DNA of 64,000 nt from Natronosalvus amylolyticus. GTDB taxonomy: Archaea > Halobacteriota > Halobacteria > Halobacteriales > Natrialbaceae. Positions 10,700 through 44,979 of this stretch are shown here, piece by piece (positions within the stretch are counted from its first letter, which is position 1; the number at the start of each line of letters is the position of its first letter). The notes under the pieces are model-generated. The model was not told where the DNA came from. It did not search any database and was given only the letters and a program-made list of their open reading frames with translations. The stretch spans positions 1-64,000 of the forward strand of contig NZ_CP101158.1 in NCBI RefSeq assembly GCF_024298845.1, in the 5' to 3' direction. The translations under genes were made by a program, and so were the position numbers.

Positions 10700-11887
10700 A
10701 TGTCGGATTTCAGTTTCCAACCTACAGGGGCAATCTTCAAAGAGCGTGAGGCGCTCCTCGAAGAGTGGACGCCCGGTGAATTGGTTGGCCGGGACGAGGA
10801 ACTGAGTAAGTATCACGCAGCCCTCCAGCCGGTGATCGAAGGGGAAACACCTTCGAATATCTTCCTCTACGGGAAAAGTGGTGTCGGGAAGACTGCCGCA
10901 ACTCGGTTTCTGTTACAACTCCTCAAGCGCGATGCAGACAAAGTAGACGATCTTGATTTGCACACAATCGAGATCAACTGTGACGGACTGAACTCGAGTT
11001 ACCAGACCGCCGTGGCGTTAGTCAACGAACTTCGCGAGCCGACGAACCAGATATCGAATACCGGCTACCCACAGGCGTCAGTCTATGAGTTTCTCTTCGA
11101 CGAACTGGATAAAGTCGGTGGCACCGTCCTGATCGTCCTCGACGAGGTTGACCATATCAAAGACGATAGTCTGCTGTACAAACTTCCACGGGCGCGTTCA
11201 AACGGAGATATATCTGAAACCCGACTCGGTGTCGTCGGCATTTCGAATGACCTGAACTTTCGGAATCAACTCAACTCGAAAGTTCGCTCGAGTCTCTGTG
11301 AGAAAGAGGTCTCGTTTAGCGCATACGATGCAAATGAGTTGTGTGAAGTCCTGCGCCAGCGCGAGACCGTAGCCTTCGAAGAAGGCGTCCTCGGTGACGG
11401 CGTTATCGAGATGTGTGCTGCATTCGGCGCGAAAGACTCCGGTGACGCTCGACAGGCTCTTGATCTGTTACTCGAGAGCGGCGACATTGCACGGGAGCGA
11501 AATGCCGATCAGGTCACCGAATCCCATGTTCGCGAAGCGAGAGAGCGATTGCAAACTGACCAGGTGGTTGAAGGAATTCGCAACTACTCGAGACACGGTC
11601 AACTCGTGTTGTGGGCGTTGACGTTGTTGGCAGAGCAGGGAGATACACCAGTCCGGACGCGGGATATTCGAGAGCCATACGAGATTTTGTGCGATCGTGA
11701 AGCGACTGACCCAGTATCAGACAGAGCTGTTCGTGAGTACTTGGCGGAGTTAGAGACCCTCGGGATTGTTTCTTCAACGCAGGTAAACCGTGGAAAGGGC
11801 GGTGGGAAGTACAAACAGCATGACCTGGATCAGACGGTTTCGAGTGTGAAAGCCGGGCTTTCGGAGTTATTGGGAACGACCCACTGA
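10700..11887 (+). CDS. Orc1/Cdc6 replication initiator (origin-linked)
   Basis: A 395-residue AAA+ initiator that should bind the adjacent origin boxes and load MCM. Walker A is YGKSGVGKTAATRF (about residues 58-71), Walker B is VLIVLDEVD (about 143-151), with a sensor-1 segment GVVGISNDLNF. A winged-helix domain fills the C-terminal third. It is leaderless: the ATG is about 26 bases below a TATA element. Boxes of the same sequence flank it on both sides, making it the most likely initiator of this replicon. The sequence here is lower in GC than the flanks. Two more family members lie at 39-45 kb. Confidence 0.93.
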   Translation: MSDFSFQPTGAIFKEREALLEEWTPGELVGRDEELSKYHAALQPVIEGETPSNIFLYGKSGVGKTAATRFLLQLLKRDADKVDDLDLHTIEINCDGLNSSYQTAVALVNELREPTNQISNTGYPQASVYEFLFDELDKVGGTVLIVLDEVDHIKDDSLLYKLPRARSNGDISETRLGVVGISNDLNFRNQLNSKVRSSLCEKEVSFSAYDANELCEVLRQRETVAFEEGVLGDGVIEMCAAFGAKDSGDARQALDLLLESGDIARERNADQVTESHVREARERLQTDQVVEGIRNYSRHGQLVLWALTLLAEQGDTPVRTRDIREPYEILCDREATDPVSDRAVREYLAELETLGIVSSTQVNRGKGGGKYKQHDLDQTVSSVKAGLSELLGTTH

Positions 11888-31393: not shown

Positions 31394-32290
31394 TCAGTCC
31401 TTGGCGATTCGCGGGGCCAGGAACTGTGTCACCTCCGCGTATGGCCCCTCCGCAGATTCATCGTCCCGATCGCCTCTATCCGAGCGCTCGATATGCTCGA
31501 ACTCGAGAATACACGGCATCTCCTCGCCCAGATGGATGGTCACCACAGCGTTCGTGGGGATGCCCTTAACCAGATCACTCAGATAATCCAGTGAGAACAG
31601 CGAATCTCCAGCCCCGCTTTCGAGGTCGACAAGCTCGTCGTCGGTCAACTCGAGATGCACGTCGTCGGTATCGCCCGACGCCGAAATGATGAACGTCGGT
31701 TCATCGTCGTCAGGGCCGGTTACCTGGAACCGAATATGGTCGGACACCATATCGGCGGCTTTCACACCGCGCTCGAGGGCCTTCCCTTCGATTTGGATGG
31801 TCGCTGGGAGGTCCAAATCGGGAACCTCAACCTCTTTCCGAACGCTTTCGGGGTCGATCAGTGACAGTGTGTACTCCATGCCGTCGATCTCAATCTCGAG
31901 TTTCCGCGTCTCTTGATCCAACTCGAGGGTCGCCTGGTCGCCATGCTCGGCGAGACTCAGCACGTCCGTAATCCGTCCAAGGTCCAGGCCGATCAGCCCG
32001 CCCGTACTCGAGTAGTGATCGAACGCGGCTTTCGGTAGCGTGTGTTCGATGCCAGCCACCTGTGCCGGGTCGACGCCCCCGGCCTCGAAGCCCTCCATCG
32101 TGATCTGCAATCGGAGTTCGTCGAGGATTTCGGTGAACTGTTCGAAGTACGCCTCGAGTACGTCCACGGGCGCTTCGCAGTAGAAGCCACCGCGCTCGGT
32201 CGTGAGGTCGGGCTGGGTTTCGTCCGTCTTTTCTGGTTCGGTTTCGGTTTCGGTGTCCGTCTCTGTCTCGGTTTCCACAGCGCTGCTCAT
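31394..32290 (-). CDS. pcn: PCNA-type DNA sliding clamp with acidic N-terminal extension
   Basis: A 298-residue clamp, about 50 longer than usual haloarchaeal PCNA. The first 30 residues are a Glu/Thr repeat (TETETDTETETEP), then a two-domain clamp fold with EAYFEQFTEILDELRLQI, GLIGLDLGRITDVLSL and, near the end, NAVVTIHLGEEMPCILEFEH. It should encircle DNA and tether polymerase or repair enzymes. With MCM and Orc1/Cdc6 on the same element it suggests partly self-supplied replication. It lies in the long leftward run, coupled to the upstream gene. Confidence 0.9.
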   Translation of the reverse strand: MSSAVETETETDTETETEPEKTDETQPDLTTERGGFYCEAPVDVLEAYFEQFTEILDELRLQITMEGFEAGGVDPAQVAGIEHTLPKAAFDHYSSTGGLIGLDLGRITDVLSLAEHGDQATLELDQETRKLEIEIDGMEYTLSLIDPESVRKEVEVPDLDLPATIQIEGKALERGVKAADMVSDHIRFQVTGPDDDEPTFIISASGDTDDVHLELTDDELVDLESGAGDSLFSLDYLSDLVKGIPTNAVVTIHLGEEMPCILEFEHIERSDRGDRDDESAEGPYAEVTQFLAPRIAKD

Positions 32291-33234: not shown

Positions 33235-33410
33235 TAGCTGTCAACCTCGTCAGTAACCGGCTGTAGCGTCCGGTCGATTACGTCCAGATCGACGCAATTC
33301 ATCGGCCAATTGCATTCAGGGCAACGTGGGGCCGAAGGGTAGCGTCCAGGTCCGTAATTTCGCTCCTCTAGGTGTCCACACTGAGGACACTCAGACGCCC
33401 ACGAAGTCAT
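33234..33410 (-). CDS. 58-residue zinc-ribbon protein
   Basis: Reading the minus strand from the ATG at 33410 gives a 58-residue protein with CPQCGHLEE and PRCPECNWPMNC, a two-pair zinc ribbon. Its stop overlaps the next start (TAATG) and its start overlaps the previous stop (ATGA). Short but well supported by this context. Confidence 0.7.
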   Translation of the reverse strand: MTSWASECPQCGHLEERNYGPGRYPSAPRCPECNWPMNCVDLDVIDRTLQPVTDEVDS

Positions 33411-33547
33411 TTTGTCACCTCTCGGAAGGTGCCGTCACAGCCCCATTTGTGACAGTCGTCACCTGGAAGACTGCTTCGAGACTTCCAATTGCAGGTGTCA
33501 CATTTCGACCGAAAGGTGCCACCCGAACAGCACCCCTCACTCGTCAT
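33407..33547 (-). CDS. 46-residue Cys-rich protein
   Basis: From the ATG at 33547: MTSEGCCSGGTFRS, KCDTCNWKS and DDCHKWGCDGTF, seven Cys in 46 residues, fitting one or two zinc sites. Overlaps the next gene by ATGA and the upstream gene by 11 bases. Confidence 0.65.
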   Translation of the reverse strand: MTSEGCCSGGTFRSKCDTCNWKSRSSLPGDDCHKWGCDGTFREVTK

Positions 33548-33776
33548 CCTGAATCACCTCGAATTCGGCCTCGTACGGCCTGAGTGAGACGCCACCTATC
33601 GAATCCCACGGCGGGTCGAAATACGCGGTCGGGCTCGAGCCCATCACGCCCTCACGGATGCGCGTGACTGTCGCCTCGAATTTGGCTTTGATCGGCCCGC
33701 TGGTGCCGTTCTCGCGAACCCGGACGAGTACGCGGTCGCCCGTCTCGAAATCGAACTCGAGGGCGTTCTGGCTCAT
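33537..33776 (-). CDS. hypothetical protein
   Basis: A 79-residue beta-rich protein (FETGDRVLVRVRENG, KFEATVTRI), like a small barrel. ATG 33776 overlaps the upstream stop. Unknown family. Confidence 0.6.
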   Translation of the reverse strand: MSQNALEFDFETGDRVLVRVRENGTSGPIKAKFEATVTRIREGVMGSSPTAYFDPPWDSIGGVSLRPYEAEFEVIQDDE

Positions 33777-34351
33777 AGCGCACCCCGTAGCTGGTCCGGT
33801 GCGTTCTCGAGGTGACACACTTCAATTGGCCCGTTCAGGCGGTGTTCGACATCCTTCGGTTCGAATTCGACCGGCCCCCAACAGTCGCCCACCTGTTTGA
33901 CAGTGACAGAGGCGAACGAATCCCAGTCATCGCTGAGGCCGATGTACTCGAGTTTGTCCTGGTAGTCGAATACGAGACACAGCTTGCCATCGGCCATCGC
34001 GAGCGCCCGCCGTATGAGGTCACCGTTGAGGTCTGACTCGCCCGTCGCGAGATGTTCACAGAGTTCGGCTACGCTCGCGTCGTAATGGAGTTCGTCGAGA
34101 AGTTCTCGAGCTTCCGAATCTGTTCGTTCCGTTGGCGGCATCAGCGAGCCGCCATCGGCTATCGGGACTCGAGACAATTGCCGCTGGGGCTCTTCAATAG
34201 GAACGCCCCAGGAACAGTTCTGGCACTCGAGACGGTACTCGTGGCCGTTTGCAGTCAGCGATGCTTTGTTCTCCAACCTGCCGTGACACGTCGGGCAGGC
34301 GTCTTGCGGTACGTCGTCGGTTTTATATGGACTGTAGTGTAATCCAATCAT
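33773..34351 (-). CDS. zinc-ribbon protein, head of upstream leftward unit
   Basis: A 192-residue protein. N-terminal CPTCHGRLEN and LECQNCSWGV form a zinc ribbon (about residues 19-47); the rest is helical then strand-rich. The ATG at 34351 is preferred; a TTG at 34378 would add nine residues encoded by a DNA block shared with 38179. It starts the chain of small genes down to 32881. Confidence 0.62.
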   Translation of the reverse strand: MIGLHYSPYKTDDVPQDACPTCHGRLENKASLTANGHEYRLECQNCSWGVPIEEPQRQLSRVPIADGGSLMPPTERTDSEARELLDELHYDASVAELCEHLATGESDLNGDLIRRALAMADGKLCLVFDYQDKLEYIGLSDDWDSFASVTVKQVGDCWGPVEFEPKDVEHRLNGPIEVCHLENAPDQLRGAL

Positions 34352-34363
34352 GGCTTGCGTGGG

Positions 34364-34402
34364 TATCCATCCGTGCAAGCACTCGCTCTGATGCCCTTAA
34401 CA
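34364..34402 (-). promoter_or_regulatory. shared upstream block, copy 1
   Basis: TATCCATCCGTGCAA (34364-34378) and TGCCCTTAACA (34392-34402) recur together at 38179-38234, with different spacing (13 versus 30 bp). On the minus strand TTAAGGGC could be the TATA-side element. Confidence 0.5.
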
Positions 34403-34530
34403 TCAGGGCGTTCTCGCGAAGATCACGCCAGTGAGTGCTTGCTATACCTGTTAACGTGATGGGTAATAATACTTTCCCTACTGAATGGTTATTCGGTAGG
34501 GTTAAACCAGTGGCTCACGCAGTATACGCC

Positions 34531-34761
34531 ATGACCAAGCGTTCGCGAGATTCCAAAGGCCGGTTCGATTCTTCAGCGGCCTACTCCGACCAGGAGTTCA
34601 TCGACGCCGTTGGGGAACTGGACCTGCCGACGACCGTTGACGTTGCCAACGTAGTGGGTTGTGGGCATTCGACGGCCCACGGGCGGTTAAAGTCGCTCGA
34701 GGACAGTGGCGACCTCGAGAGCCGGTCTGTCGGCTCCGCGTTAGTCTGGTCGGTCACGTAA
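34531..34761 (+). CDS. winged-helix regulator
   Basis: A 76-residue protein with a basic N-terminus (MTKRSRDSKGRF) and a winged helix (VDVANVVGCGHSTAHGRLKS, about residues 41-60). It is divergent from the small-gene unit and convergent with MCM, whose 3' end it overlaps by 8 bases. Probably a local transcription regulator. Confidence 0.7.
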   Translation: MTKRSRDSKGRFDSSAAYSDQEFIDAVGELDLPTTVDVANVVGCGHSTAHGRLKSLEDSGDLESRSVGSALVWSVT

Positions 34762-36823
34762 TCTGGAGTACTCCCGAAGACGGTTCGTACACCTCGCCTT
34801 TCTGTTTCAGTTTCTCGATTTCATGTGCGGCCTTGCCATTATCGATACCAGCGTCGGTGCAGCGCTCAAGGAGGATATCCATTGGTGCCCCTTCGTCGTA
34901 TTCGTCCTCGAGTTCGCCAATCATGTCCTTCACGTCCTTAATCCGCTCTCGCTGAGTTTTCGACGTTCCCGCTTCGATGATATCTGCGTCAAACTCACCC
35001 GTTTCGGGATCGATACCTACGTCATTCAGAGATTTCAATACGAGTGTAATCGCACGGTCGACGTCTTCTTGCTCAATCGTATCTGACAGCCGAGCTCTTG
35101 CTGAAGCTTCTGCTAACCGGAAAAACGCTTGTAGCTTTCGCGCCGTTACGGGAACCGGTGAATCTTCATCTGCACCTTCCAACCGAATATCAACGTAGCA
35201 ATCGACGATTTGCTGTTTCAGTGACTCATCTTCAAACACCGGTTTCACGCGCTCTCGAGCATATGCAACGTAAGACCGGAACACGTCTGTCGATACGGGT
35301 GCGTTCTGTTCGTCCGTCAGTTTCTCCCCACGGTAATCCTCTTTGGCAACGCCATCCCACGAATCTGCAACGTGTTCTGCAAGTTGCTGGTCACGATCTT
35401 CTTCGGGCGTATCGCTCATCATGAACATCAAATCAAACCGAGACATGAGCGACGGTTCGAGGTCTATCTGTTCCGATATCGGTTCATACTGATTGAATCT
35501 GCCATGTTTCGGATTACCGGCACCCAGCAGTGAGCAATTTGCCGGAAGTGTCGAATCAATTCCCGCTTTCATCACCGTCACTTCCTGACTCTCGAGTGCC
35601 CGATGCATCGCTGAAATTGCTTCAGGGTTGACTTTATCGATCTCATCAAGACAGGCGATGCCGTCGTTTGCGAGGACCAGGAGTCCGGCTTTCAAAACCC
35701 ATTGGTCGCCTGCGAAATCTTTCTCTTTTACAGCAGCAGCGGTAACGCCTGCCGTCGACAGCCCCTTTCCACTCGCAATTCGGCCAATTGGGGAAATCTC
35801 TTTCATGCGGTCCAATAGTTCGGACTTCCCCATTCCAGGGTCTGACAGAATGAGGATATGGAAATCGCCACGGTAACTCCGACCACTCTCTGTCGATTTT
35901 CGATCCGAACTCATGAGTTGCAACACCATTGCCGTCATGATCGTTCGCAACTCCTCATCGGCAAGCAAGTTGGGAGCAAGTGAATCAACGAGCATTCCGA
36001 CCGGATCGTCAGAGTTGCCAATCTCGAGAATCCGATCTTTGTGCTCTTCAATGTTGATCTCACCGTAGCCATCATCTTCGATTTCGAAGCCACCCCTGTC
36101 GACAGTCATGTGATAATCATACGGCGGTTTCTCATCATCAGAATCGTCAATCGAGAGCGTGCCGTTGGCGATAACCCGCTCGTTTCCTTCTAGGCAATTT
36201 CCTGCAATGTCTCCGCGAATTACTACGTCAATATCCGCGCCTTCGCCTTTCGAGTGTTCTGGTGGACGTGTGAGTCGAGCGAGTTGGAACTGCGTGAAAT
36301 CACACTCTTCTTTCACCAATTGGAATGGACCTTGCCGTTCACAACCTTTGCACTGATGCGGTTCTTGGAACTCACCGACTCGGTTATTTTGTCCAATCCA
36401 ATGCATTGTCCCACAAAGCAGGCATTCGAATGCGGCTTCTTTCAAATCCACTTTTTGTTTACTCAGTAGTTTTACCTGCCCTTTTACACCTACCAGCTTA
36501 TTGATGTCACGAGGTCTGTACTCCCCGATATGCCGGTGTCGCCCGGCATCCAGATTATACAATCGGGCGTTGGCGTCTGAAAGCGAGACATCGATAGGTA
36601 GGTCGTATTCAGCTATTGCCACCTCGAGATGTTCCTGCACCTTCTTGCCATTATCCCCCAGGATATCATCGGCTAGATTTGCGTCGAACTGGTAAATATC
36701 GAGCCAGTCGATATAGAGTGATCGTTGCTCTCGAGGGTATTTCTGAGCGAAGCTTAGCATATCTTCATGGTAGTAGTTCCGAAGGAATTTCTCAAAGGCA
36801 TCTACGAGGTCGGTGTTCATCAT
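34754..36823 (-). CDS. mcm: MCM replicative helicase
   Basis: A 689-residue AAA+ helicase. An N-terminal zinc site is visible (CLLCG at about residue 134 and CKGC at about 159). The Walker A motif reads LSDPGMGKSELLDR (about 328-341), Walker B reads GIACLDEIDK (about 390) and the arginine-finger segment is LMSRFDLMFM (about 461). A C-terminal winged-helix ends the protein. It contains no intein. It should unwind DNA after loading by Orc1/Cdc6. It overlaps its upstream partner by 4 bases. CTCGAG is rarer than in neighbours, suggesting a different history. Confidence 0.95.
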   Translation of the reverse strand: MMNTDLVDAFEKFLRNYYHEDMLSFAQKYPREQRSLYIDWLDIYQFDANLADDILGDNGKKVQEHLEVAIAEYDLPIDVSLSDANARLYNLDAGRHRHIGEYRPRDINKLVGVKGQVKLLSKQKVDLKEAAFECLLCGTMHWIGQNNRVGEFQEPHQCKGCERQGPFQLVKEECDFTQFQLARLTRPPEHSKGEGADIDVVIRGDIAGNCLEGNERVIANGTLSIDDSDDEKPPYDYHMTVDRGGFEIEDDGYGEINIEEHKDRILEIGNSDDPVGMLVDSLAPNLLADEELRTIMTAMVLQLMSSDRKSTESGRSYRGDFHILILSDPGMGKSELLDRMKEISPIGRIASGKGLSTAGVTAAAVKEKDFAGDQWVLKAGLLVLANDGIACLDEIDKVNPEAISAMHRALESQEVTVMKAGIDSTLPANCSLLGAGNPKHGRFNQYEPISEQIDLEPSLMSRFDLMFMMSDTPEEDRDQQLAEHVADSWDGVAKEDYRGEKLTDEQNAPVSTDVFRSYVAYARERVKPVFEDESLKQQIVDCYVDIRLEGADEDSPVPVTARKLQAFFRLAEASARARLSDTIEQEDVDRAITLVLKSLNDVGIDPETGEFDADIIEAGTSKTQRERIKDVKDMIGELEDEYDEGAPMDILLERCTDAGIDNGKAAHEIEKLKQKGEVYEPSSGVLQIT

Positions 36824-37428
36824 TGGTCATCACCCTCCGGGGACCACGAAATATCAAGTTCGCCAGAGCCATCGGCGGCAACAGGTTCTTCGGTCTTTAC
36901 TTTTGGAGATGTTCGCTTAAATTGGTGATCTGGGATTTCATACCCCCATTTATCACGCTTTGAGCGAAGGTCAGCAATCACTCGAGTGATATTCTTGTCC
37001 GTATCTCTTCCGTACTCTTCAACAGCCGCTTCGCGAACTTGGGGAATATAGGCCATGACAGTTTTATTGCGGTTGGATTGCAGGGATTCGAGGATTGACT
37101 CGAGTTGGTCACCGTACTCATCTTTCTTGTCTCGAATAGCTTCGAGTTGTTCAGAGACGAGTTCTGCTCGTTTCTCCAGTTCCTCACGCTCGTTCTCGAT
37201 ACGCTGTTGTTGTTCTCGAGACCGTCGGAGATCGATCTGTAACTCCTCGAGTTGTCGTTCTAACGCAGCCTCAGTTGAACCCTCGTCGAGTCCGAGGTAC
37301 ATTCGGAGTGCCTGATTGACGATCTTCCACATTGGAATGTCTGAATCAATCGACTCCTGCTTCAGCTCCTCTCGAGTTTCTATCGGGATTTCTCCAGACC
37401 ACAGTTTCCGGCCTTTACGAGACGCCAT
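36820..37428 (-). CDS. ribbon-helix-helix/coiled-coil partner of MCM
   Basis: A 202-residue protein. The N-terminus resembles a ribbon-helix-helix domain (KLWSGEIPIETREELKQES...NQALRMYL), followed by a long coiled coil (about residues 55-105, REQQQRIENEREELEKRAEL) and a basic C-terminal region. The ATG at 37428 is chosen for GGAGGTG six bases upstream and a TATA element (GGTATATAG, about 37470-37480). This resembles plasmid DNA-binding partners that polymerise on repeats. It may bind the TCTAGA array just upstream; inferred. Confidence 0.75.
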   Translation of the reverse strand: MASRKGRKLWSGEIPIETREELKQESIDSDIPMWKIVNQALRMYLGLDEGSTEAALERQLEELQIDLRRSREQQQRIENEREELEKRAELVSEQLEAIRDKKDEYGDQLESILESLQSNRNKTVMAYIPQVREAAVEEYGRDTDKNITRVIADLRSKRDKWGYEIPDHQFKRTSPKVKTEEPVAADGSGELDISWSPEGDDQ

Positions 37429-37496
37429 CACCGACACCTCCGTTTCCAGTGGATCAACTGGAGAAAAATCTCTCTATATACCTTTTCTTTATAGAA

Positions 37497-37770
37497 TCTA
37501 GAAGACCTTCTAGAATCTAGAAGACAGATGCATCTAGAGACTTTCTGAGAGTCCTCTTTATATATGGGTGTTCGTTCCATACCTGCAACTGTCTGAACTA
37601 TGTTGGATGCCCCTCGAAACACCTGTTTTATTATCCGGTTTCTGCCAGGTGTTCTAGAAAGCAACCATCCTTCTAGAAGCAGATGGGGTTCATCTAGATG
37701 ATCTTGCCTTCTAGAAAGGCCGGCCTTTTCTAGAAGATTGGCCTTTCTAGAAGACTCGAGTCTTTCTAGA
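37497..37770. repeat. array of eleven TCTAGA palindromes
   Basis: TCTAGA starts at 37497, 37509, 37516, 37533, 37653, 37672, 37693, 37710, 37729, 37746 and 37765, most inside a wider CTTCTAGAAG-like palindrome. Two clusters (four and seven copies) are separated by 115 bp containing TATATATG. CTAG is normally scarce in haloarchaea and this 274-bp stretch is the only such cluster in the window. It lies upstream of the MCM operon promoter. Confidence 0.9.
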
Positions 37771-38270: not shown

Positions 38271-38708
38271 CTAGATCGACACCTCGTCGATCCCGATATC
38301 GAGGTCGCACAGGACTAACTCGAGCCACCGTGGCACCGTTGCCGGAAGGTCGAGTGGCTGGCTTTCGTGATAGACACCCATTACGTGGGTGCTGTTGAGG
38401 TCGCCTTCGACGACCCATTTGTTCTTTCGAACGACGTCGATCCGGAATCTCGAAGCGTCACCCGTGATGGTCACCTGCGCGGCTCGCGCGGTGTCGGGTA
38501 ACTCAAGTGGGTACTGCGTGAGATCGACGGTTTTCTCAATGCCGCTGATTGCGTCTGGCTGTTGGTGGGTAACTCCCATGTCTGTCTGTAAGTCACCGCT
38601 ACTGATAAGGGAAAGAGGGGGTGTTTCCACCGCTTCCACCATTTCCACCCGGCGCTGGCTAGCGGTTTGGGCGTCCGAACGCTTTTTGGGTCGGTGTGCG
38701 TTGGTCAT
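38271..38708 (-). CDS. hypothetical protein
   Basis: A 145-residue protein. The basic N-terminus (RPKKRSDAQTASQRR) is followed by an acidic beta-rich domain (TARAAQVTITGDASRFRIDV). The ATG at 38708 is preferred to longer upstream starts, which translate non-acidic sequence. No family recognised. Confidence 0.55.
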   Translation of the reverse strand: MTNAHRPKKRSDAQTASQRRVEMVEAVETPPLSLISSGDLQTDMGVTHQQPDAISGIEKTVDLTQYPLELPDTARAAQVTITGDASRFRIDVVRKNKWVVEGDLNSTHVMGVYHESQPLDLPATVPRWLELVLCDLDIGIDEVSI

Positions 38709-38920
38709 GATACGGTCGTGCGGTCCCTGCGAGATTGCGCAGGGGTCAGTTTTTCTGACGGTCCAATCCGCCAAGCAGTGATTTCCACTGACAATCAGAA
38801 CTGTTAGGCCCTCAGTACTTATAATTATTGTATCGAGTAATACACTGGCTCGTATTCTACAATACACTCATGAATGTGGACCAATAAGACTAACCCAAGA
38901 ATGCTCAACACATTAGGTGA

Positions 38921-39214
38921 ATGTCGCGCCGACCGAGGGTGGATTGGATGACTCGAGCCGACGACGCTATCCTCGAGTTCCTACTCAACGAAGGCAACCA
39001 AGAGCTAATCTGTACGCCCTCTGTCTTGGAGATGAATATCGAATTCGGTATTTCGACGGTTCGATCACGGCTTCGCCGCTTGCACGAAGCTGGGCTGGTC
39101 GAATACTTCGACCCGGACAAAGGGGCCTACCAAATCTCTGAAAAGGGCAAGCAGTATCTCGCGGGCGAACTCGATGCCGACGCCCTCGAGCAATCAGCCG
39201 ATTCTGACTCTTAA
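38921..39214 (+). CDS. winged-helix transcription regulator
   Basis: A 97-residue protein beginning MSRRPRVDWMTRADDAILEF, a typical haloarchaeal winged-helix start, with the recognition part ISTVRSRLRRLHEAGLVEYF and a C-terminal acidic tail. Likely represses or activates a neighbouring promoter. Convergent with the orc1/cdc6 gene that ends at 39225. Confidence 0.82.
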   Translation: MSRRPRVDWMTRADDAILEFLLNEGNQELICTPSVLEMNIEFGISTVRSRLRRLHEAGLVEYFDPDKGAYQISEKGKQYLAGELDADALEQSADSDS

Positions 39215-39224
39215 ATCCTGATCT

Positions 39225-40271
39225 TTAGTTCGCAAGAAGCGATTCTCGAAGTTCCTTACCTACCATTTTCCGAAGTTGGTACTCTGGAACACTCGAGTCG
39301 GTCTTGTCCACCAATTCGTATTCGACGAACTTGCGCAACCAGTTTCGGAAGGTCCGATCACTCTTTGGCTCATCTACGCGCTCACAGTAGGCTTCGAACA
39401 ATGGCGTGCTCGTCGACGGCCCCACACTGCCGATCACCTCGAGGGCCACCCGCTGATCGGCAGACAGTGAGTCCAGCCTCGAGCGAACGATTTCGCGTTC
39501 GGCGTCACCGACCGACGCTTCGATCACATCTGAGCTCACTGTACCCAGTCGGTCTTTTCGCGTGCGTCGAACCGCCTGATTCAACAGCGAAATGGCCTTC
39601 CGCGCGTCTCCGTCTGCGTACGAGACAATCGTGCTGATTTCCTCGTTCCCGATCACGCCTGCATCAAGACCAGCGCGAACCCGCCGATCCAAAATAGAAG
39701 TGAGCTGTGATTCGGAGTAAGCACGAAAGGCGATCTGGGTGGCCGATCCCATGCGTGAGTCAATCCGTGGGTCTTCGAACTCGAGGTCGTGCCACGGCTG
39801 GTTGGCGATACAGACGGTCGAAACGCCGTTGAGGCCGTACAGTTGGTGCAACACGTTCCATGTCTCGAGTTGGTCCACCTCATCGAGGACAACAATCGTT
39901 CCATCGGGGGTGCTGGCTTTCACCTTCGAGTACAGCGAGCCCGTAGATTCCCCTCGCCGGAACGCCGATGGCCTCGCGCCCAGGCCCTCGAGCATGGCGT
40001 TGAGAATATCGTGTTGGGAGTGATGGGCCATGCAGTCGATGTAGATGATAGAGACGTCGTGGGCTTCCTCGAGTTGCTCGAGGACACAACGTGTGGTCGT
40101 CGTCTTGCCCGCCCCCGATGGGCCATACAGATACGCCGATGCTTCCCAGAATTCACCCGTTGGGAGCGGTTTCAACACCGAAATCAGGGAGTCGATTTCA
40201 GACTCCCGATGGACGATAATCTCGCGTTCGGGCTGGGTATTCGGCTCGAGAATAGCCGGATTTTGTATCAT
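39225..40271 (-). CDS. Orc1/Cdc6 family initiator, second copy
   Basis: A 348-residue AAA+ protein. Walker A reads LYGPSGAGKTTTTR, Walker B IVVLDEVDQLE and the sensor segment CIANQPWHD; a winged helix completes the C-terminus. The ATG at 40271 is used because family homology begins there (EREIIVHRESEID) and a TATA-like TTATTTAAT lies about 30 bases upstream. No origin-box repeats are seen next to it, so it may act at a distant origin or as a regulator. It resembles the 43951 copy more than the 10700 copy. Confidence 0.9.
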   Translation of the reverse strand: MIQNPAILEPNTQPEREIIVHRESEIDSLISVLKPLPTGEFWEASAYLYGPSGAGKTTTTRCVLEQLEEAHDVSIIYIDCMAHHSQHDILNAMLEGLGARPSAFRRGESTGSLYSKVKASTPDGTIVVLDEVDQLETWNVLHQLYGLNGVSTVCIANQPWHDLEFEDPRIDSRMGSATQIAFRAYSESQLTSILDRRVRAGLDAGVIGNEEISTIVSYADGDARKAISLLNQAVRRTRKDRLGTVSSDVIEASVGDAEREIVRSRLDSLSADQRVALEVIGSVGPSTSTPLFEAYCERVDEPKSDRTFRNWLRKFVEYELVDKTDSSVPEYQLRKMVGKELRESLLAN

Positions 40272-40353
40272 ATCCGTCTTGTTCACGGTGTGATTAAATA
40301 ACCGCTCTGGGGTGGTGTTCGGATATTCGGATAACTCTAAATCGGAACCTACA

Positions 40354-40899
40354 TCATATTTTATCATCTATTCTATCGAATTCATTTTCTATACCTTCTT
40401 GCAACAAATCTATAAATTTGCTAAATTGACGATCAACTTCTGGTGGACGAGATGTCCTTATTTCGATATTCTGTTTTCCAAATCCTGAGGAGAAAATTAT
40501 TCCATTGAAATCATCTTCTTCCCGAACCTTCTCTATAACCCGGCTTATTTCGATACCAACTAGATGGGGATAATCAGTAATATCTCCTTTCCATACTAGC
40601 GTCATTTTAAAAAATGTGTCACCATCACTTCCGAGTAAAGCCTTTTTAATATTATATCTCCAATTAGTCCTTGGTTCCTTGCACTTGATATAGTCAATTG
40701 AAATCAACAAAGTGTGGAATTTACCAAATTTATAAAAATTAATTGGTATTTCCTCATCTACGTGCTCTTCTCGTATGATTTTTTGTTGGGCAAATATACC
40801 ATTGGTCATAGATCCTCTCCAAATTAAGAGTGAAAAAATCGCTGCAAATAAAGAAAACACTAAGGTTAGGACTGAAATTATGATTGAAATCGATACCAT
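40354..40899 (-). CDS. AT-rich membrane-anchored ORFan
   Basis: A 181-residue protein with one N-terminal membrane helix (SIIISVLTLVFSLFAAIFSL) and a soluble Ile/Lys/Phe-rich domain. Composition is unlike haloarchaeal coding sequence: lysine-rich, much lower GC and no CTCGAG from about 40372 to 41110. It was probably acquired recently from a different donor. No family recognised. Confidence 0.65.
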   Translation of the reverse strand: MVSISIIISVLTLVFSLFAAIFSLLIWRGSMTNGIFAQQKIIREEHVDEEIPINFYKFGKFHTLLISIDYIKCKEPRTNWRYNIKKALLGSDGDTFFKMTLVWKGDITDYPHLVGIEISRVIEKVREEDDFNGIIFSSGFGKQNIEIRTSRPPEVDRQFSKFIDLLQEGIENEFDRIDDKI

Positions 40900-41080: not shown

Positions 41081-41284
41081 TTACTCACTGTCCGTGATTG
41101 TCCCCTCCCCAACCTCGAGATCGGCCTCCAACTGCTCGACTATCGCTTTCCCCTCTACGTGCAACTCCTTCGCCCGCTCGAGGGACACCTCACCGTCTTC
41201 TAACTGCGTGATGATTTCCTCGAGTCGCGCGGTCTGTTCGCCAATCGACGGTTGTCCTGGTTCGGTGGTATCAGTCATGGTCAT
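41081..41284 (-). CDS. xseB: exonuclease VII small subunit
   Basis: A 67-residue three-helix protein with the XseB pattern LEEIITQLEDGEVSLERAKE. The ATG overlaps the xseA stop (ATGA). XseB subunits wrap the long coiled-coil arms of XseA to make a nuclease that degrades single-stranded DNA from both ends. Bacterial-type ExoVII is known in haloarchaea. Confidence 0.88.
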   Translation of the reverse strand: MTMTDTTEPGQPSIGEQTARLEEIITQLEDGEVSLERAKELHVEGKAIVEQLEADLEVGEGTITDSE

Positions 41285-42516
41285 AGGAGGAATATGTAGC
41301 CGAGCAAGCCGAGCAACAAGAGCACTAACACGGCAATTGCAATACGCTGTCGGCGTGTGTCGCGCTCGAACTCACGTTGGGCGTCGGCCTGGGCTTGCTC
41401 GTGGGCTTTCTGCTGTTCGAATTTCTCGAGGGCGCTGTCTAATCGGTTATCGTACGCCGAAAGGCGCTGGGTGACAGTCGCCTCGTAGGCGTGCTCGAGG
41501 TCGCGCTGGAACGCCCCCAACCGGGATTCGACGCGTAGGGCATACGTACTATCCAACTCGGTTTCGAGCGCTTCCAGCCGGTCAGACGTGACTCGAGCGT
41601 ACGCACTCTCGAGACGCTCCCCCTTTGCTTCGATTTCACTCTCGAGGGCGTCCTTTTCGGGGACGATCTCACCAGCGTGGGTGGGCGTCATTACCCGCCG
41701 GTCAGCCACTTCATCGGCCAGCGTTCGGTCGTTCTCGTGGCCGACACCCACCACTACCGGCGTGTCAGTATCGAAAATCACGCGACACAGGGGCGTTTCG
41801 TTGAACACCCGAAGGTCCTTTTCGGAGCCACCGCCTCGAGTGAGGATAATCACGTCGACGTGGGCCGTATCGTCGAGTCGGCCAATGGCACTCATCATCG
41901 AGAGCATGGCGTCCTCGCCCTGGACGGTCGAATGCTGGACGATGATATCGATATCCGGGTAGCGCCCATGCAGACTGGTCACGACGTCTTTTCGGGCGTC
42001 ACTATCCGCGCTGGTGACGACACCCACACACTGTGGTAACTCTGGCAGGGGTTGCTTCCCGGCTTCATCAAGCAAGCCATCGTCCTCGAGTATCGCTCGA
42101 TTCTCCCGGTAAATCTGTTCGTATTCGCCTTCACCCACGGGGACACACTGGCTGACGATCAGCGAGACACTCCCGTTGGCATCGTAGTACGAGAGATCGC
42201 CGTTGACAGCCATCTGTGTACCATCCTCGATATCGATATCCAGCCTGTTGAGCTGGTACTGGAAAATCACACAATGGATTTTCGAGCCGTTATGAACCAG
42301 ATCGAAGTGGGCGTGGCCGTTCCCAGAAACGCCGTAATCCGAAACGTCGCCCAGAACGTATTCGTACTGGAGATTGGGTATGTTCTCGAGGAGTTCGCTA
42401 ATCTGTTCGTTGAGCGAGTCGACGAACGCGACTGACTCGCTGTTGAGGGTTTCACGAAGTGACTCGAGGTTCTCGTTCCGGTCGCTGTCATCGTGTGGAC
42501 TCGAGTCAACACCCAT
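41281..42516 (-). CDS. xseA: exonuclease VII large subunit with C-terminal membrane anchor
   Basis: A 411-residue protein. An N-terminal OB fold (VLGDVSDYGVSGNGHAHFDL) binds single-stranded DNA. The catalytic region holds LTRGGGSEKDLRVFNE and VVVGVGHENDRTLADEVADR. A long coiled-coil arm follows and the protein ends in a clear membrane helix (IAIAVLVLLLLGLLGYIFLL). Such a tail anchor is not part of the standard bacterial enzyme and would place the nuclease at the membrane, for example to handle incoming or outgoing strands. Coupled to xseB. Confidence 0.9.
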   Translation of the reverse strand: MGVDSSPHDDSDRNENLESLRETLNSESVAFVDSLNEQISELLENIPNLQYEYVLGDVSDYGVSGNGHAHFDLVHNGSKIHCVIFQYQLNRLDIDIEDGTQMAVNGDLSYYDANGSVSLIVSQCVPVGEGEYEQIYRENRAILEDDGLLDEAGKQPLPELPQCVGVVTSADSDARKDVVTSLHGRYPDIDIIVQHSTVQGEDAMLSMMSAIGRLDDTAHVDVIILTRGGGSEKDLRVFNETPLCRVIFDTDTPVVVGVGHENDRTLADEVADRRVMTPTHAGEIVPEKDALESEIEAKGERLESAYARVTSDRLEALETELDSTYALRVESRLGAFQRDLEHAYEATVTQRLSAYDNRLDSALEKFEQQKAHEQAQADAQREFERDTRRQRIAIAVLVLLLLGLLGYIFLL

Positions 42517-43950: not shown

Positions 43951-44979
43951 CTACTCGAGTACGTCCTCGAAATCCATCAACTGCGTCGTTGTCACCTCAT
44001 ACGTTCGCCCACGTTTCTGGCCGTGTAACTCAACGATATCGTAGTGCTCCATCTTCTGCAAGTAACCAGTCACCGTTCGTTTCACCACTGGATCGCGAAC
44101 CCGCTGCTCGTACTGCTCGTATATCTCACCGATGGATTGCTCGCCCCCTTCGACGAGGATTTGATACAGAACCCGCTGATCGGCGGTGAGTTTCGAAATC
44201 GTCGCGCGCAGTAACTCTTCGCGAGCGTCACCCAACACGGACTCGATATCTTCTTTTCTGACACGCTCGCCACCACGTCGGTCGGCGTGCTCGAGTGCGT
44301 TTTTCAAAATTGCAATCGCAAAGCGGGCGTCCCCTCCAACACGGTCGGCTATCACCTCCAGATGTGGCTCGCTGATCACCTCCCCACGGGTGGCCGCCTC
44401 AGTTCGCTTTCGGAGGATGGACACCAACTCATCCTGCGTGTACTTCTTGAACTCCACGGCGGGGTAGCCAGCCAGTCGGCTATGCACCCTCGAGTCCAGC
44501 CGTGAGTAGAGGTCTTCGCGCTCGTTTGCAATCAACAAGAGCGTGATGTGAGGCATTTCGTGCAGCGGTTTCAGTAGGCGGTCATCCTCGAGTTGGTCTA
44601 CTTCGTCGAGGACGACCACGTAGGGATGGTCGACTTCGGCTTTGAGCTTCGCAATTAGGTCGTCTTTGGGCTCGCCACGCCGTCTGAAAATGTCGTACCC
44701 CTCGAGAACACGCTTGAGGGTGGCTCCGTACTGGTAGTTCGCCCAACAGTCGATGAGGGTAGTTTCGATCTCTGGTGAGCTAGCTTCCAGCCGCTCGAGG
44801 AGGAACTGTGTCGTGTGGGTCTTCCCGACGCCCGTGGGTCCATGAATGAACGCACCGTCGACGCGCTGGTTGTCGGTGATTGGCTCGAGGACCTCCGAGA
44901 GATAGTTGATTTGATCGTGTCGATGGAGGATCTCCGCTGGCTGGAAGTCAGCCTGGAGGACCTCCGAATTGGTTATCAT
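43951..44979 (-). CDS. Orc1/Cdc6 family initiator, third copy
   Basis: A 342-residue AAA+ protein with Walker A IHGPTGVGKTHTTQF, Walker B VVVLDEVDQLEDD, sensor LLLIANERED and a C-terminal winged helix (VKRTVTGYLQKMEHYDIVEL). It shares LDEVDQLE with the 39225 copy, suggesting a common origin distinct from the origin-linked copy. The promoter region has GGTAATATTAAG about 20-30 bases upstream. No origin boxes seen nearby. Confidence 0.9.
   Translation of the reverse strand: MITNSEVLQADFQPAEILHRHDQINYLSEVLEPITDNQRVDGAFIHGPTGVGKTHTTQFLLERLEASSPEIETTLIDCWANYQYGATLKRVLEGYDIFRRRGEPKDDLIAKLKAEVDHPYVVVLDEVDQLEDDRLLKPLHEMPHITLLLIANEREDLYSRLDSRVHSRLAGYPAVEFKKYTQDELVSILRKRTEAATRGEVISEPHLEVIADRVGGDARFAIAILKNALEHADRRGGERVRKEDIESVLGDAREELLRATISKLTADQRVLYQILVEGGEQSIGEIYEQYEQRVRDPVVKRTVTGYLQKMEHYDIVELHGQKRGRTYEVTTTQLMDFEDVLE

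Follow-up and report, generated by a model that had tools for sequence, protein, structure and literature searches.

A split array of TCTAGA palindromes flanks the predicted promoter of a ribbon-helix-helix/coiled-coil and MCM helicase operon on a haloarchaeal plasmid: a probable autoregulatory operator

The omega repressor of pSM19035, a small ribbon-helix-helix (RHH) protein (71-residue PDB chain), binds arrays of short repeats, the 7-bp heptads, and the repeats of the parC site of plasmid R1 are 11-bp direct repeats. In R1, the repeat clusters flank the promoter of the operon, and the RHH-fold protein on this split site loops it out and represses the promoter (PMC5016525). In bacterial iteron origins (RepA, RepE, Pi), the gene adjacent to the array encodes the protein that binds it, in these cases a winged-helix Rep. 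In haloarchaea, ORB/Cdc6 origins contain an inverted pair of ORB elements with G-strings around an A+T-rich region, with a cdc6 gene nearby, and two inverted ORBs on either side of the A+T-rich region are required in the minimal oriC1 of Haloarcula hispanica (PMC3936714).

The window analyzed here is a stretch of 64,000 nt from Natronosalvus amylolyticus, taken from the start of a contig of 104,885 bp. It harbors an array of 11 TCTAGA copies, all of them exactly at the positions given by the first-pass annotation (37497–37770), and a single further copy, at 699. The copies form two clusters. The distal cluster (37653–37770) comprises seven copies starting at 37653, 37672, 37693, 37710, 37729, 37746, and 37765, with spacings of 17 or 19 bp and one of 21 bp, and the proximal cluster (37490–37538) includes the four copies that start at 37497, 37509, 37516, and 37533. 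A twelfth box, which is degenerate (TATAGA at 37490–37495 on the plus strand, TTCTATAA on the minus strand), lengthens the latter; in minus-strand order, the proximal boxes thus begin at 37538, 37521, 37514, 37502, and, for the degenerate box, 37495, with spacings of 17, 7, 12, and 7 bp. The most common form of the box is the 8-bp palindrome TTCTAGAA, found in seven of the 11 boxes, and positions further out show a weak preference. The array is not due to chance, and it is conserved (see below). In 20,000 draws from a first-order Markov model of the local 501 bp, TCTAGA occurred 0.3 times on average and four times at most; shuffling of the whole window led to an expectation of 11.4 copies per 64 kb, a figure that ignores clustering. 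The claim that CTAG is rare in this DNA also holds, with 0.61 occurrences per kb of the window outside of the array versus about 3.8 per kb that would be expected, by simple arithmetic, from composition alone (55% GC).

The array precedes a minus-strand operon of two genes with a 4-bp overlap. The first gene (36820–37428, minus strand) encodes a protein of 202 aa (ATG start) with an RHH domain and a coiled coil, which is the proposed binder of the array, and the second encodes the plasmid MCM helicase (34754–36823, minus strand; Pfam MCM P-loop, 2.5e-68, as well as MCM_OB, MCM_lid, and the archaeal MCM winged helix). A TATA box, TATATAAAG, is predicted by consensus only at 37556–37564 on the minus strand, between the two clusters, with a conserved GAACGAAC upstream of it. 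Its distances to the nearest distal box (94 bp) and to the first proximal box (26 bp) are the same in this plasmid and in the related plasmid described below. The start of the first proximal box, 26 bp downstream from that of the TATA box, is at the predicted transcription start (about 37538); the proximal boxes would therefore extend over this start and the leader, and the distal ones over the region upstream of this consensus promoter. The first-pass annotation had placed both clusters next to the operon promoter; more precisely, they are located on either side of it. The sequence and its alignment with the related plasmid also revealed, between the clusters, a conserved GCAGAAACC element enclosed by the inverted repeat AACACCTG..CAGGTGTT (37618–37653). 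The layout resembles that of R1 parC/ParR, where split repeat clusters likewise surround an operon promoter and the operon encodes an RHH protein. However, the second gene of the R1 operon encodes the actin-like ParM and not an MCM helicase, and the boxes described here are palindromes on a 7/12/17–19 bp grid and not direct repeats.

Upstream of the array are a small conserved gene (38271–38867, minus strand; no family or domain match), a gene for a winged-helix-like regulator (38921–39214, plus strand), and a gene for an Orc1/Cdc6-type protein (39225–40367, minus strand; TIGR02928, 7.6e-43), the last of which is 1.5 kb beyond the array, with the two small genes in between. The order cdc6, opposite-strand regulator, small gene, array, RHH-coiled-coil gene, mcm is shared with a plasmid of Natronosalvus halobius, in which the small gene is found at 33391–33699 and an ArsR-like gene occupies the syntenic place of the regulator. 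The cdc6 gene is syntenic also in pHALXA03 of Halopiger, which has cdc6, the regulator, the small gene, a plain coiled-coil gene, and mcm, and lacks the array. Altogether, the contig encodes three Orc1/Cdc6-type proteins (10700–11887, 39225–40367, and 43951–44979), a PCNA-like protein (31394–32290), and, as judged by eye, a family-B DNA polymerase-like ORF (L031 3830–6025), which is a large replication set for a plasmid. This archaeal plasmid also encodes a convincing homologue of the exonuclease VII large subunit (41281–42516; Pfam 3.4e-57) with a C-terminal hydrophobic segment.

The N-terminus of the RHH-coiled-coil protein matches Arc-like repressors in PHROGs (7.3e-5, residues 16–45). In its AlphaFold model, the RHH helices span residues 16–26 and 33–44, followed by a coiled-coil helix from 49 to 142, with pLDDT values above 90 in the middle of the helix, and by a helical C-terminal part with a short helix. 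The RHH part has a low confidence (pLDDT 41–71), as is expected because an obligate dimer was modelled as one chain from a five-row alignment. The PHROG match and the model support the RHH/coiled-coil architecture proposed for the product of this gene in the first-pass annotation. In a PDB search, the omega repressor was the only named RHH match, albeit a weak one (E 0.045–0.1). The protein would share with omega the binding of an RHH repressor to arrays of short repeats, and two of the boxes are also 7 bp apart. Unlike omega, it has an additional coiled-coil helix of about 94 residues and a C-terminal part, and its putative boxes are palindromic. No model in Pfam, NCBIfam, or PHROGs spans the whole protein, nor did these collections reveal a Rep domain in the protein or its relatives. 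The protein is the founder of an unnamed family that combines an RHH domain with a long coiled coil.

Among 391 genomes of Halobacteria, the triple-box pattern was found only in the N. amylolyticus genome and on the plasmid of N. halobius (NZ_CP099999.1, 47,551 bp). The same two genomes were the only ones with a close homologue of the RHH-coiled-coil protein (WP_253439080 in N. halobius, 48% identity), and the next-best matches have identities of 23–34%. The first-pass annotation had proposed to look for the array upstream of mcm in related plasmids and had named its absence from homologous loci as evidence against the idea; instead, the array is conserved at the homologous locus of this second plasmid. 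The N. halobius array consists of a distal part of six boxes (34190–34286) and a proximal part (34401–34450) that ends with a degenerate box. Toward the gene, the start-to-start spacings are 19, 17, 19, 17, 19 / 120 / 17, 7, 12 in N. halobius and 19, 17, 19, 17, 21, 19 / 120 / 17, 7, 12 in the window. In the alignment of the two arrays, the box columns are 93.7% identical and the spacers 54.0%, a contrast that is somewhat inflated in a box-anchored alignment. The TTCTAGAA pair is absent from six other Natronosalvus genomes, and no close homologues of the protein were found in IMG/VR, GTDB contigs, or phage records. As far as the searched genomes and IMG/VR are concerned, the TTCTAGAA spelling appears to be private to the two Natronosalvus plasmids, because the 78 stretches with a TTCTAGAA triple array in 84,980 genomes are bacterial by title, with no haloarchaeal match, and no MCM was detected in the three IMG/VR stretches with such an array. 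Repeats of TTCTAGAA with regular periods that are unrelated to this finding are present in Treponema MAGs (63 bp) and in Neobacillus/Bacillus (54 bp; L037, L039, L052, L054, L098, and others).

The family occurs in haloarchaeal viruses, plasmids, and integrated elements. Its genes are located directly upstream of mcm in the viruses HATV-3 (gp66), HRTV-29 (gp15), HSTV-1 (gp44), BLv36 (ORF21), and HFTV1 (gp55), as well as in eleven genomic elements (G267, G257, G036, G204, G279, G230, G121, G232, G039, G347, and G240). The MCM alignment was too divergent to serve as a seed for the scan of viral sequences, and single MCMs added few viral contigs. The HFTV1 record annotates gp56 as a DNA helicase. 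In the transcriptome of this virus, gp55 is a middle-down gene, and gp56 was grouped with gp55 for a hypothetical role in replication (PMC12542753), a grouping that fits a regulator or an initiator. No description of the gene family or of its arrays was found in the literature searched, which included few subscription papers.

Box arrays are present at 8 of the 19 RHH-coiled-coil–mcm loci, mostly with other sequences, on a grid of 7–8, 11–12, and 19 bp. Thirteen TGTACA copies with steps of 7, 12 / 19 / 12, 7 bp occupy a 430-bp stretch of G267, 530–950 bp before the RHH gene. The same hexamer is repeated in G230, with steps of 8, 11, and 7 bp, 57–31 bp before the start codon, and GATATC is repeated in G039 with steps of 8, 11, and 8 bp. 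Units 19 bp apart are found in G257 and G036 (TGGCACC-GGTGCCA) and in G204 (CCCTATA-TATAGGG). Relative to the start codon, the arrays of G230, G039, and G204 lie at −70 to −25. A 19-bp repeat, defined as a 9-bp direct repeat at exactly 19 bp with one mismatch allowed, was detected within 200 bp upstream of 6 of the 19 mcm-linked genes, whereas its frequency in 238 control windows drawn from these loci was 2.1%; when G257 and G036 are counted once, the ratio is 5 of 18, with a binomial chance of about 4e-5 by arithmetic. The N. halobius locus is not among these matches, its proximal boxes being 17, 7, and 20 bp apart, and the array of G267 is too far upstream. Because a 19-bp repeat was found upstream of none of ten relatives or look-alikes for which no mcm neighbor was detected, the operator goes with the mcm-linked branch. 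In whole-genome searches, the cognate sites of G039, G230, G267, G257, and G036 were confined to their own elements: the site of G039 was found in one place even at three mismatches, the paired sites of G230 and G267 were restricted to their own arrays, and the sites of G257 and G036 were found in two and three places, respectively, within 5 kb. About half of the mcm-linked loci, including HRTV-29, HSTV-1, HFTV1, and G347, have no clear array, and HATV-3 and BLv36 have suggestive half-site clusters.

Several further features of these loci were observed. The two-unit operator is dispersed in G257 (two copies, at −550 and −96 from the RHH start codon; L136) and in G036 (three copies, at −5032, −1116, and −97; L137), and each copy is followed by a portion of one and the same leader, which gives the impression that the operator had been duplicated together with the leader along the element. 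Upstream of the RHH-coiled-coil genes of HRTV-29, BLv36, HSTV-1, and HFTV1 there is a strong, weakly alignable hairpin of the type CCAAAAGAC...GTCTTTTGG (L125:2230–2365, L127:2040–2150, L126:2205–2340, L128:1575–1700), in some cases followed by CCGGTTAG-like repeats. In elements with a plain coiled-coil gene and MCM (Haloarcula CBA1115, pNATPE01, HJTV-4, Actinarchaeum, BJ1, and Humcor1), a TGTC-GRTTAGC-like motif is conserved in the gap before mcm (L115:4770–4990, L114:4740–4960, L119:1195–1435, L116:4720–4945, L120:4780–4972, L121:4783–4962). CGCTCGC repeats are present in four of these six elements, and the motif is flanked there by inverted repeats of 20–41 nt, the arms of which differ between elements yet stay complementary, with compensatory changes in 10 of 26 predicted pairs. 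This gap element has no match among the Rfam families and is a candidate origin or structured RNA.

From the computed features, namely, the array with its conservation and geometry, its position at the promoter, the co-occurrence with divergent motifs, and the local-only sites, we infer binding, looping, and repression, and we consider it probable that the main function is autoregulation of the RHH-mcm operon, with the array as the cognate operator of the RHH-coiled-coil protein. As expected of an RHH operator of the Arc/CopG/omega type, the protein has an N-terminal RHH domain and the sites overlap the consensus promoter of its own gene. This protein is most likely the binder, a prediction made because cognate, differently spelled arrays are found at related operons: where the geometry is constant and the letters change along with one protein family, that family is expected to bind the boxes. 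Each TTCTAGAA box would be occupied by one RHH dimer, and the box pairs 7 bp apart together with the 17–19 bp repeat would allow cooperative binding of dimers; one dimer per box, 7–8 bp pairs, and 19-bp repeats fit the known behavior of the RHH proteins omega and ParR (PMC5016525). The coiled coils might join the two clusters across the promoter, in a loop as in R1 parC, and filled boxes at or after the transcription start would block initiation. The loop is predicted because the layout is split, and repression is predicted because the proximal boxes sit at the transcription start. In this way, the protein would set its own level and that of the co-encoded MCM, so that the supply of helicase would be coupled to the copy number of the plasmid. 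Because simple autoregulation needs the proximal boxes alone, the distal cluster suggests a further job; in a second step, the same nucleoprotein complex may help to recruit MCM or limit replication at the locus. The initial interpretation of the array as bound repeats of the iteron or centromere type is thus supported in part, in that the repeats are real, conserved, and located at the promoter of the RHH/coiled-coil–MCM operon, but partition is disfavored (see below), and autoregulation, the simplest role, had not been named.

A tentative second reading, which is possible but on balance rather unlikely, and which does not exclude autoregulation, is that the array is the core of a replication origin at which the RHH-coiled-coil protein, as an initiator of the iteron type, would remodel the adjacent A+T-rich stretch and load the co-encoded MCM, with or without the neighboring Cdc6. 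The tie between mcm and RHH-coiled-coil genes, which is seen in viruses as well as in plasmids and integrated elements, argues for this role, and the spacing of 17–21 bp next to the gene of the presumed binder, as well as the predicted self-repression, is shared with bacterial iteron origins, although the adjacent gene encodes an RHH-coiled-coil protein instead of a winged-helix Rep and the locus is a candidate origin only. As at the haloarchaeal origins, an ORB-like element with a G-string, GATCCACTGGAAACGGAGGTGT (37434–37455, minus strand), is present between the proximal cluster and the gene, beside the 60 bp with the highest A+T content in the region (70% at 37461); its G-string overlaps the ribosome-binding site of the RHH gene. 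This element has the best ORB matrix score of the window, 22.3 bits versus at most 15.3 bits in 12 shuffles, whereas the N. halobius counterpart is weak, with 11.4 bits, inside its shuffle range, and an A+T-rich stretch of this kind is missing from N. halobius (58%). By eye, the ORB-like element had been seen in both plasmids; the matrix test backs only the copy in the window. The matrix derives from five ORB-like sites on the chromosome of this genome, and these sites had themselves been identified by their similarity to the window element; the 1.5 kb examined on each side of them showed no cdc6. Near 2475453 on chromosome C1 (L189 1501–1950), three G-string-bearing ORB-like elements of mixed orientation lie between hemL-like and carbonic-anhydrase-like genes, with no cdc6 in the flanking 1.5 kb on each side. 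On the plasmid, the syntenic cdc6 gene at 39225–40367, 1.5 kb past the array, also resembles the setting of ORB/Cdc6 origins. In contrast to these, only one significant ORB-like site is found near the array instead of at least two inverted ORBs around an A+T-rich region, and the dominant repeats are not ORBs. Both replicons have their maximum of cumulative GC skew near the module, at about 30 kb, but GC skew is unreliable on small plasmids and too weak for placing an origin.

It is very unlikely that the array is a parS/parC-like centromere, with the RHH-coiled-coil protein as its binder in plasmid partition. The operon promoter lies between two clusters of repeats, the layout of R1 parC/ParR, a type II system, but the operon encodes neither ParA, ParM, nor TubZ, and the partner of the RHH gene is a helicase gene, mcm, where a motor NTPase gene would be expected. 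Also the ParA gene is not linked to the RHH gene, as it would be in a type Ib system, and is found elsewhere in both plasmids (121–1155 in the window, about 36 kb off; 75–905 in N. halobius). In addition, the same RHH-coiled-coil–mcm pair occurs in lytic tailed viruses, for example, HFTV1. The suggestion of a partition site in the first-pass annotation is therefore disfavored, because ParA is far away in both plasmids and the operon lacks a motor NTPase. That the repeats are a mutational or compositional artefact, or the sites of a restriction system (TCTAGA is the XbaI site) or another unrelated system, has a negligible probability: the rarity of CTAG in the rest of the replicon could mean that the cluster reflects foreign DNA, but the boxes were kept while the spacers drifted to 54% identity, the geometry is common to two species and is kept with different letters in other elements, and a restriction-site or CTAG-composition artefact is rejected on the basis of this conservation.

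According to a wider proposal, which we regard as unlikely at present, the RHH-coiled-coil proteins would be dedicated initiators and loaders for the MCMs of haloarchaeal viruses and plasmids, and the box arrays would be the origins of an Orc1/Cdc6-independent type of replicon; if this were true, the initiator-iteron code would be specific to each element, and the 7/12/19 bp geometry would be common to all. Irrespective of this proposal, immediately upstream of many of the element-borne MCM genes examined is a gene for an uncharacterised protein, either of the RHH-coiled-coil type or a plain coiled coil. A prediction of the cognate site is available for each array-bearing element, and the combination of one protein family with variable palindromes on a fixed spacing makes the control and loading of virus-encoded MCMs that lack an Orc1/Cdc6 of their own directly testable, for example, with gp55–gp56 of the Haloferax virus HFTV1.
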